Origin: Fibrobacter sp.
GTDB taxonomy: Bacteria > Fibrobacterota > Fibrobacteria > Fibrobacterales > Fibrobacteraceae
Direction of reading: 5' to 3'
Assembly (NCBI RefSeq): GCF_017551775.1
Contig: NZ_JAFZKX010000028.1
Location: forward strand, 1 to 46,776
Length of the DNA: 46,776 nucleotides
Shown one piece after another: positions 35,178-40,409 of this stretch; the first letter of the stretch is position 1, and every line of letters starts with the position of its first letter. Below the pieces are notes generated by a model, which saw only the letters and a list, made by a program, of their open reading frames with translations, did not search any database and was not told where the DNA came from. The position numbers and the translations under genes were made by a program.

Positions 35178-36134
35178 TTACTTCACTCGGAACTTGAATC
35201 CGAAAGTGAACGTTTTTTCTTCGCTAGGAGGGATGACGATGAGGCCGCGGTGATGGTTCAGCGCGTCGGGCTCGGATGTCATGGGCTCGATGGCGATGCT
35301 CATGCGGTCGGGCGGGGTGTACATTTGGATGGCGTTGTACTGCTCGTTACCGGCCTTTTGCCAGATGTCGAGGGCGAAGTGGTCGCTTTCGAGCTGTACG
35401 TGCGCTTCTCCGCTCTGGTCGGCGAGGCAGAAACAGTCGTTGATGAACTCGTCACCGATTTTGCGGCCGCCCACGAAGCGCGTGTCTTCCTTGAAGTTGC
35501 CGGTGGGGAGGTCGGCGCTGTCCAAGAGCGCGAGGTTCGTCTTGGGGAGCGTGAGGGTGAGCCCGTCGATTTTTTCGCCGAGCATAAAATACGGGTGCCA
35601 ACCTTCGGAATACGGCATGTCTTTTTTGCCGGTGTTCTTGACGCTGGAGGTCATGGTGACGGTTTCGCCGGTAAAGACGATGGTGTTGGTTGCGCGGAAG
35701 GGGAACGGGAAACCCGCGAAGGCGCCGGGCCAGTCGCAGGTGAAAACTGCGGTGCAGCTTTCGCTATCGCTTTCGAAACTTTCGAATTTCCATTCCTGGT
35801 TCTGCAGGAATCCGTGCAGGGCGTGCGGGGCCCAGCTTACGTTATTGATTAGTTTGTATGTGCTGCCGTTCCAGGTGAATTGCGCATAGGCGGTGCGGCC
35901 GGGATACGGTGTGAGTCGGCAACCGGCATTCGTGTCGGGGCCCATCTTGAAAATGTCGTCGCCTTCGCGGTAGCCGAAGAGGAGGTCGAGGGGTTTGCTG
36001 CTCACGGGGACGCGCCAGGCGTTGAGGCCGCCACCGTAGCCCGAAAGGATTTCGAATTCGGCGCCGTCGTTGCGTCGGAGGACAAAGTTCTGAACCGTGC
36101 CGATAGGGCGGGAAATAATCGAGAAGTTGCTCAT
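35178..36134 (-). CDS. Aldose 1-epimerase family protein
   Basis: This 318-residue protein has the galactose mutarotase-like fold. Key blocks are APHALHGFLQNQEW (His), YSEGWHPYFMLG (His) and AIEPMTSEPDALNHHRGLIVIPP, with the catalytic Glu region and the closing strand. It interconverts alpha and beta anomers of a hexose in the cytosol. Its place upstream of two mannan-active hydrolases suggests it handles hexoses released from plant polysaccharide. TATCTT lies 7 nt before the ATG without a Shine-Dalgarno sequence. Confidence 0.85.
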   Translation of the reverse strand: MSNFSIISRPIGTVQNFVLRRNDGAEFEILSGYGGGLNAWRVPVSSKPLDLLFGYREGDDIFKMGPDTNAGCRLTPYPGRTAYAQFTWNGSTYKLINNVSWAPHALHGFLQNQEWKFESFESDSESCTAVFTCDWPGAFAGFPFPFRATNTIVFTGETVTMTSSVKNTGKKDMPYSEGWHPYFMLGEKIDGLTLTLPKTNLALLDSADLPTGNFKEDTRFVGGRKIGDEFINDCFCLADQSGEAHVQLESDHFALDIWQKAGNEQYNAIQMYTPPDRMSIAIEPMTSEPDALNHHRGLIVIPPSEEKTFTFGFKFRVK

Positions 36135-36291: not shown

Positions 36292-37668
36292 ATGGATTCC
36301 CAGACGATTGTTGCGCCGATGACGCCTGCGGGCGTCAGTGCCGTTGCCGCGCTCCGCGTGAGCGGCACCCGCGTCCGTGACGTGGTTCGGCGCCTGTTCG
36401 GCGACAAGCATGCTTCTGCGCTTGAGCCGCGCAAAGCAAGTCTCGGGACTGCGCGCGACCCGCAGACAGGCAAGGTGATCGATAGCCTGCTGTACCTGTT
36501 TTTCGAAGGCCCGAATTCTTACACCGGCGAAGACGTGCTGGAACTGTACCCGCACGGGAACCCGCTTATCGTGCGCGACCTGCTGCAGGCCATCCGCGGT
36601 ATCGAGGGTGTGCGCCTTGCGGAACCGGGCGAGTTTACGCGCCGCGCCTTCCTAAACGGCAAGATGGACTTGACTCAGGCGGAATCCGTGGCCGACGTGA
36701 TCCACAGTGCGAACCGTGCGGAACTCGAGAATGCGCATCGCCTGCTTTCGGGCGCACTCTCGAAAAAGATTGCGACGCTCGCCGCGCAGGTGAAGGACAT
36801 CTCCGCGCGCCTCGAACTCGACGTGGACTTTGCCGAAGAAGAGGCCGACCCGGATTTCGCGGGTTGGGAAACGCGATTCGTTTCGGTCCGTGAATCCATC
36901 CAGCAGATTTTGAACAGCTTCCACGGGAAGGCTTCTTTGAGCAGGCTCCCGCTGGCGGTGCTTTACGGTGCGCCCAACGCGGGCAAGTCGAGCCTCGTGA
37001 ACGCCCTCCTGGGCGAAGACCGCGTGCTCGTGAGCAACGTGCCGGGCACGACGCGCGACTTTGTGGAAGTGCGCCTGTTCCTCCCCGGTGGGGAAGTCCG
37101 CCTCGTCGATACGGCGGGTATCGCGGACCGTGCGACCGACGAACTCGATGCGCTCAGCATGAAGAAGAGCAAGGAAATTCTCGAGGAAGCGGATTTGAAG
37201 ATTCTCGTGGTGGACTCACTTGCCCCTGCGGGGCTGCGGAGTGACGAGGGTGACAATGATGCCGACGTCGTCGTTTATTCCAAGAGCGACTTGCGCGACC
37301 CGAATGCCTCGCACATGGACCCTATCGCATCTACGATGCTCCAGGGTGACAGATGTGCGGCCCTCAATATCTCATCAAAGACAGGTGACGGCCTTGCCGC
37401 ACTCAAGGACATCATGAATGCGGCTCTGTTCAAGGAAAACGCGAACGCGGAAGACCTCTGGATTACGAGCGAGCGCGAGAAGGCCTGCCTCGAAGACGCC
37501 CTCGCGGGTGTCGACCGCGTGCTCAATTTGCTCAAGAACAATCCGGCGGTGGAACTGCTCGCCTTCGAAATGCAGCTGGTGCGCCGCGCCCTCCAGAGCA
37601 TAACGGGCGAGATTTCGTCCGAAGACATTTTACAATCTATTTTTGCGGGGTTCTGCATTGGAAAGTAG
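36292..37668 (+). CDS. mnmE: tRNA modification GTPase MnmE
   Basis: This 458-residue protein has the N-terminal tetrahydrofolate-binding domain (IVAPMTPAGVSAVAALRVSG, GPNSYTGEDVLE) and a helical domain. The inserted G domain has G1 GAPNAGKSS (226-234), G2 PGTTRD, G3 DTAG and G4 SKSD in place of NKxD. It ends in the obligatory CIGK. With MnmG it forms the 5-carboxymethylaminomethyl group at U34 of certain tRNAs. The length is standard. mnmG is not in this window. Confidence 0.95.
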   Translation: MDSQTIVAPMTPAGVSAVAALRVSGTRVRDVVRRLFGDKHASALEPRKASLGTARDPQTGKVIDSLLYLFFEGPNSYTGEDVLELYPHGNPLIVRDLLQAIRGIEGVRLAEPGEFTRRAFLNGKMDLTQAESVADVIHSANRAELENAHRLLSGALSKKIATLAAQVKDISARLELDVDFAEEEADPDFAGWETRFVSVRESIQQILNSFHGKASLSRLPLAVLYGAPNAGKSSLVNALLGEDRVLVSNVPGTTRDFVEVRLFLPGGEVRLVDTAGIADRATDELDALSMKKSKEILEEADLKILVVDSLAPAGLRSDEGDNDADVVVYSKSDLRDPNASHMDPIASTMLQGDRCAALNISSKTGDGLAALKDIMNAALFKENANAEDLWITSEREKACLEDALAGVDRVLNLLKNNPAVELLAFEMQLVRRALQSITGEISSEDILQSIFAGFCIGK

Positions 37669-37669
37669 C

Positions 37670-38521
37670 ATGCTCAGCATTATCGGCGTCCTGATGGGCG
37701 TCTTCGCCTTCGGGACATACATGGTCCCGCTCAAAAAGTACCCGAACTATTCTTCGTGGGCGTTCCTCGCGGTAATGTCTGTGGGCGCGATCGTATGCTC
37801 GTCGGTTATCGCCTGCATTACGGGGCAGTTCAACCTGCAGCCCGTAGGTGTCGTTTGCGGGCTCCTCTGGGTTATAGGCGGTGCGCTTTGCTTCTGGGCG
37901 GTGCAGGCTGAGGCCGACCTCGCTGGCACGGGGCTGCGTTCCATGAGCGTGAGCATCCTGCTCTCGTTTATCACGGGAGTCACGCTGTTCGCAGAACATA
38001 CGCTCCTCTATTTCTCGATTCCCGCCATCGCGTGTATGCTCGTGGGTATCTGGATTCCGGCGGGCCGCGTAAAGCACCTCTGGAAAAACTGGCGCTCGCT
38101 CCTTTCGGGCGTGGTATTCGGTTCGTACCTGATTCCGTACAAGCTCAGCAACCTCGGGGATATGGAATTCCTGTTCCCGTTCTCGGTGGGCGTCTGCGTG
38201 GGCAGCGTTGCCCTTTTTGCCGTCCTCACGCTCAAGCGCGGTAAACGCTACGACATGCCGGTTGTCCCGACTTTGTTCTCTTTCGGTGCGGGCGCGCTCT
38301 GGATGCTCGGAACGCTCGCCATCTTCTGGGCCATCGCTGACGACGGCATGTTCGGTTATGCGGTGGGCTATCCGCTCCTGCAGCTCAATCTCGTGGTGAA
38401 CCAGTTGTGGGGCGTGTTCGCCTTCGGGGAATACGCGACGCGCACGGAACGCGTAAAGCTTGCCGTGTCGACTGTCGTAATCCTTTCGGGAGCCGTGCTG
38501 CTTACGCTTTCAAAGATGTAA
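37670..38521 (+). CDS. GRP-type sugar transporter (GlcU/RhaT-like)
   Basis: This 283-residue protein has about ten membrane helices and the drug/metabolite-transporter fold. The opening GVLMGVFAFGTYMVPLKK and the inner repeat FGSYLIPYKL match glucose/ribose porter (GRP) or L-rhamnose transporter families. The substrate is not predictable, and import of a sugar is likely. The ATG starts 2 nt after the mnmE stop, with GGAAAG as ribosome site, so the two are co-transcribed. The 3' end overlaps the convergent gene by 20 bp. Confidence 0.82.
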   Translation: MLSIIGVLMGVFAFGTYMVPLKKYPNYSSWAFLAVMSVGAIVCSSVIACITGQFNLQPVGVVCGLLWVIGGALCFWAVQAEADLAGTGLRSMSVSILLSFITGVTLFAEHTLLYFSIPAIACMLVGIWIPAGRVKHLWKNWRSLLSGVVFGSYLIPYKLSNLGDMEFLFPFSVGVCVGSVALFAVLTLKRGKRYDMPVVPTLFSFGAGALWMLGTLAIFWAIADDGMFGYAVGYPLLQLNLVVNQLWGVFAFGEYATRTERVKLAVSTVVILSGAVLLTLSKM

Positions 38522-39413
38522 TTTCCGTCTCGATTTGCTCGGCGGATTTCGTGTCTTCGTTGTAGATGGCGTTTATCTTTTTGCAGCTGAGTTCGAGCAG
38601 CTTGCGGGCGGGCTCGTTGTTGCTCTGGGCGCGCAAAATCCTCAGGGCGCCGTCGATTCGCTTGACGTCCACCTGCGAGGGGTAGCTCTTCATGAAGTTG
38701 TAGAACAGCTTGACTTGCGCGTCGTATTCGTCGTCGTTTTCGCAGGCGAGCAGGAACGGGATGACCTTCACGTTCAGGAGGTTGCTCAAGTCGCCGACGA
38801 ACGTATTGAGCGATGCGCCTTCGGGGAAGAGTTCCACCGTGTCCTTCATGATGTCTTCGTTGTCGAGGAACTGGCCGTTCTCGAACTGCGAAAGCATCTC
38901 GTTCAAAAGATCCATCTCGAGTTTTTTCGTCTGCTCGCGGTAACGCGCCTGGTAGTAGATGGGGAGCGTCGTGAGGCAGAAGTGGGCCTGGTTCGCGCCG
39001 ATGAATTCACCGATAAAGTAAATGTCGGCGTCTTCTTTTAAGATGTCCTCTTCTTTCGTGAAGTTGCCGATGCGCGCCGGGATGGGAATGACTTCCATGG
39101 AGGAAAGTTCGCGCAGGCGGTCGCGCAGGGTGTCCACGTCGAGATTCTCGGGCATGTCGACGCCGTTCTCTTGCATGGACTCGATAAGGTCGTTGAGCTT
39201 TTCGTCGACGATTTTCTTCTTTTGATTGCGGGACGGGACCGCCGGATTGAACGTGCGGAAATCCCCTTCGAGGACGAGCAGGCCGTTCTTTATCATGTCA
39301 TCGAGCGGAGAACTGTCGTCATCGCTATCGGGAGTAGGCAAAATCTTTGCGTAGGCGATCATCCTGCCGCAAAGTTTTTCGTCGTTTCCTTTTTTCTGTT
39401 CAATACCGAGCAT
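38502..39413 (-). CDS. Hypothetical cytosolic protein, 303 residues
   Basis: No family is recognised. The protein is acidic and mostly helical, with no signal peptide or membrane segment. The centre (FLTKEEDILKEDADIYFIGEF-like, QAHFCLTTLPIYYQARYREQTKK) could be a substrate or nucleic-acid-binding fold, and the C-terminal half resembles a helical repeat. The start codon lies only 18 bp from the divergent acetyltransferase start, and both appear leaderless. Sharing a promoter suggests co-regulation with that gene. Confidence 0.75.
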   Translation of the reverse strand: MLGIEQKKGNDEKLCGRMIAYAKILPTPDSDDDSSPLDDMIKNGLLVLEGDFRTFNPAVPSRNQKKKIVDEKLNDLIESMQENGVDMPENLDVDTLRDRLRELSSMEVIPIPARIGNFTKEEDILKEDADIYFIGEFIGANQAHFCLTTLPIYYQARYREQTKKLEMDLLNEMLSQFENGQFLDNEDIMKDTVELFPEGASLNTFVGDLSNLLNVKVIPFLLACENDDEYDAQVKLFYNFMKSYPSQVDVKRIDGALRILRAQSNNEPARKLLELSCKKINAIYNEDTKSAEQIETEITSLKA

Positions 39414-39418
39414 GACAA

Positions 39419-39425
39419 TAATATA
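39419..39425. promoter_or_regulatory. Overlapping bidirectional -10 elements
   Basis: Read rightward, TAATAT (39419-39424) lies 7 nt before the ATG at 39432. Read leftward, TATATT (39425-39420) lies 6 nt before the ATG at 39413. Any -35 elements must lie inside the opposite coding sequence. Confidence 0.55.
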
Positions 39426-39431
39426 GAAAAT

Positions 39432-40409
39432 ATGCCTGGATCATTCACTTGCCCTATTGTCACTCTGGAGCCGAAGGCGATAGAGTCCAAGGCATGTCTC
39501 CGGGTTCTTGAGGTATTTTCTATTATTGGCGTTATGGAACCGGCAACGTGGCAAAAGATTCTCGACCTGTGCAACAGGCTCTCGAACGTGACGTATGAGA
39601 ACCTCACGAAAATTATACGCCTGGAATCTACCGGCAGTGCGACCGCGGCGCGCAACCTCGACGACAGCGACCAGAACGATATCGATACCTGGATGGGTGG
39701 CGGCACGTGCTTCAGCATGACATGGCACCTGTACCAGAGCCTGCGCGACATGGGGCTTGAACCGCGTCTTGTGATGGGGCACAAGCGCAAGGAGCGGAAC
39801 ATCCACTGCGCGCTCATTTTACCGGACCCGCAATGTCATCCCGGCCCTAGTGCCGGCGGACAGCACTTGGCAACTTGTTGCCTTAGTGCGCATGGTCCCC
39901 GAATGGGGAGGATCACCGTGTCTCAACCAGCAGAGTTCCTCTTCGATCCCGGCTACCTCATCTTCGACCCGCTGCCAATCCCGCTTCCGCAGCCATTCGG
40001 CACCGGCGAATCGCTTTTCCCGCTCGTGCCCAACAGCGTGAGGCTCGTCCGGCCCGACATGGATTCCATGGAACTCTGGACGGGCGGTTCCATCCGTACC
40101 GACGGAAAACTGAACTCTCCCATGAAGTTGCGCTTCGAATACCCGGTCGCGGGCGTGAGTGTTGAAGAATTCAAGCAGCACTGGGCCGAAAGTTTCTACC
40201 GCGAGATGATGACCTACCCGGTGCTGAACCGCCTCGACCGCGAGCGCGGCGTGCAGTATTACTACCAGAAGGGCAATCTCGTGACCCGCGATGCGAACGG
40301 GAGCCGTATGGAACGCCTCGATGAATCCGTCCGGGTAGAAAAATTGAGCGAAATTTTCAAACTTTCGCCCGAACTTGTGTCCAAAGCGCTCGGAATCCTC
40401 TCGAAATAG
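39432..40409 (+). CDS. Arylamine N-acetyltransferase-like protein
   Basis: This 325-residue protein carries the NAT catalytic triad in order. Cys93 is in GGGTCFSM, His125 in NIHCAL, and Asp172 in FDPGYLIFDP. TYENL at about 54 corresponds to the family PYENL. NAT enzymes transfer acetyl or longer acyl groups from CoA to amines. The natural substrate is unclear. Residues about 134-166, between His and Asp, are an unusual Gly/Cys/His-rich insert encoded by a run of small palindromes. It would be an in-frame repeat insertion, and its effect on activity is unknown. Confidence 0.75.
   Translation: MPGSFTCPIVTLEPKAIESKACLRVLEVFSIIGVMEPATWQKILDLCNRLSNVTYENLTKIIRLESTGSATAARNLDDSDQNDIDTWMGGGTCFSMTWHLYQSLRDMGLEPRLVMGHKRKERNIHCALILPDPQCHPGPSAGGQHLATCCLSAHGPRMGRITVSQPAEFLFDPGYLIFDPLPIPLPQPFGTGESLFPLVPNSVRLVRPDMDSMELWTGGSIRTDGKLNSPMKLRFEYPVAGVSVEEFKQHWAESFYREMMTYPVLNRLDRERGVQYYYQKGNLVTRDANGSRMERLDESVRVEKLSEIFKLSPELVSKALGILSK
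39841..39917 (+). repeat. Palindrome mosaic inserted in coding sequence
   Basis: There are three hairpins in a row. CCGGC/GCCGG is at 39841-39856. GCACT-t-GGCAAC-tt-GTTGCC-tt-AGTGC is at 39863-39889. CCCC-gaat-GGGG is at 39897-39908 with partial GGT/ACC flanks. The style matches the mosaic at 1-198. It keeps the reading frame of the acetyltransferase-like gene. Confidence 0.65.

Follow-up and report, generated by a model that had tools for sequence, protein, structure and literature searches.

In the Deinococcus-Thermus lineage, ORFs that lie directly behind a -10 motif and are transcribed without a leader make up about one third of all ORFs, a finding that rests on mutation and transcript data (PMC12340547). 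TA-led leaderless genes, marked by a TA-rich signal some 10 bp before the start codon, have been surveyed across bacteria; Fibrobacter is not mentioned in the main text of the survey (PMC3160421). Bidirectional promoters with symmetric -10 elements and start sites 18 bp apart are described from enterobacteria (PMC10268837). Our literature search turned up nothing relevant on leaderless transcription or mapped transcription starts in Fibrobacter.

The locus described here belongs to a divergent gene pair in a window of 46,776 bp from a Fibrobacter genome, the window being the whole stretch of DNA that was analysed. We regard the Deinococcus-Thermus mode as the nearest demonstrated case: a -10-type element stands directly before the start codon, a -35 element is not required, and leaderless mRNA would be expected. 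Here, unlike there, the reading comes from sequence, the phylum is another one and the element has the form CTATNTT (PMC12340547). The distance of the signal from the start codon also matches that of the TA-led genes (PMC3160421). As in the enterobacterial promoters, the left gene's element has an AATAT core with -7T/-11A reciprocity; the pair differs from them in having separate conserved elements, which predict start sites at a distance of 121 bp (PMC10268837).

The start codons of the pair

The preliminary description of this DNA proposed that two divergent genes are served by one bidirectional promoter of 18 bp. Read directly, positions 39411-39434 are CAT GACAATAATATAGAAAAT ATG, so the 18 bp with an ATG on each side are present, as are the two hexamers on which the proposal was built: TAATAT, read to the right, at 7 nt from ATG 39432, and TATATT, read to the left, at 6 nt from the ATG of the left gene. 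When the 18 bases are shuffled, 7.8% of the resulting sequences have TANNNT 5-8 nt ahead of each ATG; the resemblance in both directions is therefore not significant by itself and is weak evidence. Features of the locus are collected in Table 1.

Table 1. Features of the divergent pair, in window coordinates
Feature	Position	Strand	Remarks
Left gene	38502..39413	minus	303 aa; start ATG at 39413 conserved
Right gene	39534..40409	plus	291 aa; predicted NAT fold; conserved start ATG 39534 (MEPATWQKIL...)
Left-gene -10-like element CTATATT	39420..39426	minus	-13 to -7 from left ATG
Right-gene -10-like element CTATTATT	39520..39527	plus	-14 to -7 from ATG 39534
18 bp GACAATAATATAGAAAAT	39414..39431		predicted promoter of left gene only, part of intergenic region
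Non-conserved stretch, 34 open codons	39432..39533	plus	most likely untranslated spacer
Dispersed repeat inside 34-codon stretch	about 39458-39493		partial copies elsewhere in own genome
Hypervariable in-frame insert of right gene	39825..39938	plus	protein residues about 98-135

Homologs of the left protein occur in 110 of the 111 family genomes, and nearly all of them match from residue 1. For the right protein, an open frame runs from ATG 39432 to 40409 and gives 325 aa; its homologs, found in 106 of the 111 genomes, have matches that mostly begin at residues 29-43 of this reading. An alignment of 35 right-protein homologs has an invariant Met at window position 39534. It spans four genera of the family, sister genera with 59-65% identity among them, and all 35 proteins begin at the equivalent of this Met, their starts having been picked near the position expected from tblastn. 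The register is fixed by the residues that follow: W6 hardly varies, and S17 and T20-L24 vary hardly or not at all. With the conserved start at ATG 39534, the true start codons are 120 bp apart in the window genome, not 18. A conserved start downstream of the chosen one, which the preliminary description had named as the observation that would overturn it, is thus what the right gene has.

Outside the window's own genome, the 34 codons between the two candidate ATGs can be aligned only with the nearest sister genome (G081). The remaining relatives carry stops or unrelated repeats in their place, and no relatives of the 34 residues were found at the protein level beyond these two genomes. In both, ATG 39432 is kept and its frame is open as far as 39534. 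Substitutions between the two amount to 2 synonymous and 3 non-synonymous in the stretch, against 29 and 10 in the core gene; the patterns are indistinguishable (p 0.14), which counts as a point against reading the stretch as spacer. The extension was also considered as a real domain and rejected, its relatives ending at the sister genome and the substitution test being uninformative. We consider ATG 39432 very unlikely as a gene start; as part of the reading set out below, it would be a chance ATG in a spacer that is poorly conserved and contains a repeat.

A start-adjacent element for each gene

Of 36 distinct regions upstream of the left gene in Fibrobacter, 27 have CTATATT at exactly -13 to -7 of the ATG, and three more have it shifted by 1 nt. 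These regions are T-rich at about -17 to -15, and little is conserved beyond about -19. Rightward, the same core reads TAATAT in 13 of the 36, CAATAT in 10 and GAATAT in 5, and a single symmetric -10 element for both genes is not kept in the relatives. Judged by conservation, it is the leftward element alone that the 18-bp core appears to preserve. The element is also found where the right gene lies elsewhere (L054). In some relatives with the left gene standing alone, GTTAATT replaces CTATATT, a point against the explanation that we favour.

The right gene has an element of its own. Every one of 30 distinct upstream regions of paired right genes has a TANNNT that starts between -12 and -15 and a T at -7, and little conservation is seen beyond about -19. 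In relatives the element is mostly CTATCTTT; the window form, CTATTATT, is less common, and this too was counted against the favoured explanation. It is present at two loci (L020, L022) where the left gene does not adjoin and absent from two others (L021, L076) in which the right gene directly follows another gene. No -35 element was found for either promoter in relatives of the gene pair.

Between relatives, the distance between the start codons ranges from 33 bp (G080, G020, G027) to 454 bp (G076). Unrelated repeats take up the widened gap, while both elements keep their spacing to the start codon of the gene they belong to. In the three relatives with 33 bp, two facing elements occupy the gap without overlapping. 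Periodic repeats of 7 bp, such as TAGTGGT/TAGTAAA and CATTAGT/CATTGGT, fill the intergenic region of nine loci (L006, L008, L010, L013, L014, L059, L067-L069), beginning directly behind the left promoter element.

The explanation that best fits these observations, to which we give a probability of roughly 0.8, is that of an old divergent pair in which each gene would have its own start-adjacent core promoter of the -10 type. Each transcript would begin at the AUG or within a base or two of it. CTATATT would direct leftward transcription from the A of the left ATG, 39413, and CTATTATT rightward transcription from ATG 39534; these predicted start sites, 121 bp apart, would leave room for two polymerases. 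In front of both genes, a -10-like hexamer that is conserved in relatives ends 6-8 nt short of the start codon, TATATT at -12 to -7 of the left gene and TATTAT at -13 to -8 of the right. If the A of the left ATG is taken as +1, TATATT falls exactly where a -10 element is expected, and the right element lies 1 base further out. Direct reading of TATTATTGTC-ATG and ATTATTGGCGTT-ATG finds no Shine-Dalgarno sequence before either start. We infer from these features that the elements are -10 elements of RNA polymerase. The preliminary description's proposal of leaderless mRNAs gains support by inference for both genes, from the -10-like elements 6-7 nt from the starts, the missing Shine-Dalgarno sequences and the genome-wide enrichment of this layout described below.

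A different reading of the elements would place the promoters at a distance, inside the opposite coding sequences, with leaders on both mRNAs and CTATNTT as some other start-proximal signal. The role of the elements is indeed judged from resemblance and spacing. Against distant promoters, there is the scarcity of conserved positions upstream of about -19 and the lack of a Shine-Dalgarno sequence before either start, and the fixed gap of 6-7 nt is what a -10 element starting transcription at the A of ATG requires. We hold this reading to be improbable.

A single bidirectional promoter, defined as divergent start sites 7-25 bp apart that share one -10 element, is not supported, in view of the conservation of the starts and the separate element of each gene. 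The fullest version of it would have a symmetric -10 core in the 18 bp fire both ways, with the right protein beginning at ATG 39432 and carrying 34 extra residues. The -7T/-11A reciprocity fits start sites 18 bp apart, at 39413 on the left and 39431 on the right (PMC10268837), and ATG 39432 with its open frame is shared by the sister genome. The extension is missing from all other relatives, however; Met 39534 is invariant, a separate conserved element precedes the right gene, and the rightward hexamer is unconserved. We consider this version very unlikely. One promoter for both genes, as first proposed, is at odds with elements that are conserved separately and come to lie up to about 450 bp apart in relatives, and the comparison speaks strongly against a conserved promoter of that kind. 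The misassigned start codon is what turned the promoter of one gene into an apparently shared one.

Weak firing in the opposite direction is common for -10 elements. The left promoter might thus fire weakly rightward, adding a minor, longer RNA to the output of the right gene's own leaderless promoter at 39520-39527. The symmetry of the AATAT core makes such firing possible, and divergent start-site pairs 18 bp apart are abundant (PMC10268837). The rightward element is unconserved, however, and we think this combination unlikely.

Extreme compactness, with upstream contacts lying inside the opposite gene, had also been claimed. This does hold for the three relatives with 33 bp, in which two polymerases would exclude each other, and for another pair of the window genome (L134; contig C68, 12098 minus and 12134 plus). 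The latter consists of two ORFs that resemble glycosyltransferases; 35 bp separate their start codons, and the gap has two facing CTATATT elements. Very compact divergent leaderless promoters thus seem to exist in the lineage, but as two promoters. The window includes a second divergent pair, with starts at 36134 (minus) and 36292 (plus), 157 bp apart, whose ORFs resemble aldose epimerase and MnmE; CTATNTT lies 7 nt before both start codons.

Products of the two genes

Searches of Pfam and NCBIfam with E values up to 0.1 gave no match for the right protein. Its AlphaFold2 model is of good confidence (mean pLDDT 82.4), and the top 36 Foldseek matches are all structures of arylamine N-acetyltransferase (NAT) or geldanamycin amide synthase; the E value is below 0.001 for 35 of the 36, and NAT structures are matched at E 1e-6. 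Cys59, His91 and Asp138, a candidate Cys-His-Asp triad, are invariant in 35 sequences. On the strength of the model, the right gene is predicted to encode a protein of the arylamine N-acetyltransferase fold. The hypervariable in-frame insert of this gene differs in nearly every Fibrobacter species and is absent in sister genera; residues 102-130 of the protein have pLDDT below 50. The insert found in the window includes a dispersed repeat, of which a copy with 84% identity lies on contig C67. The insert at locus L013 (1878-1992) is a tandem array of 7 bp, unit TCTCTCG, present in 16 copies and read in frame, and similar 7-bp arrays occur in the intergenic stretch there.

For the left protein, searches gave no Pfam, NCBIfam, PDB sequence or fold match, and the structure model is weak (pTM 0.42). 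Its close relatives in a named collection are all from Fibrobacter, many of them from rumen or horse samples. At two loci from another genus of the family (L076, L079), the NAT-like gene directly follows an ORF that ends in CIGK-stop, as MnmE does. CIGK is likewise the end of the mnmE-like gene of the window (36292-37668), and about 1.9 kb separates that gene from the NAT-like one.

The CTATNTT layout in the genome, the family and the phylum

Counts for whole genomes come from pattern searches and from a 326-kb sample of the window's own genome. CTATNTT followed after 6 or 7 nt by ATG occurs 110 times in this genome against 20 for reversed-pattern controls, a 5.5-fold excess (binomial p 3e-16), and the gap between CTATNTT and ATG peaks at 6-7 nt. 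ORFs of at least 60 codons were opened by 32 of 36 inspected ATGs behind CTATNTT. No clear -35 element was seen in 32 other examples from this genome, the strongest column of the -35 region reaching 0.28 bits. A Bacteroidetes-type -7 element, TAnnTTTG, was considered since some examples in the genome read TATATTTG, and was rejected as a misfit to the CTATATTAT of the left gene. In the 326-kb sample, TANNNT is enriched 12-13 nt before the ATGs of long ORFs, and Shine-Dalgarno-like tetramers are enriched 9-12 nt before them. Because both enrichments are present, the genome seems to use both modes of starting.

The same layout is enriched in all 17 family genomes tested (2310 in total vs 520 reversed), and no enrichment is seen in 21 genomes from eight other families of the phylum (2290 vs 2119 reversed). 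These counts point to the layout as a property of the Fibrobacteraceae, and perhaps of part of a neighbouring family too. One genome of a family in the same class but outside the Fibrobacteraceae (G123) has 48 occurrences against none of the reversed control; two other genomes of its genus have 12 vs 8 and 17 vs 13.

The Fibrobacteraceae appear to use the leaderless arrangement for many genes. We lean towards regarding it as a lineage-specific class of leaderless promoter, with a T-rich stretch and then CTATNTT 6-7 nt before the ATG, no -35 element, and about 100 or more genes per genome. Such a class would allow divergent starts 33-35 bp apart, with two non-overlapping core promoters back to back between them.

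The pair itself is an ordinary conserved divergent pair. Correcting the start codon removes a false shared promoter of 18 bp together with a false extension of 34 residues, and the start-adjacent element could help start-codon annotation throughout the family. Fibrobacter is an important cellulose degrader of the rumen, and the more interesting result is how prevalent this promoter layout may be across its family.
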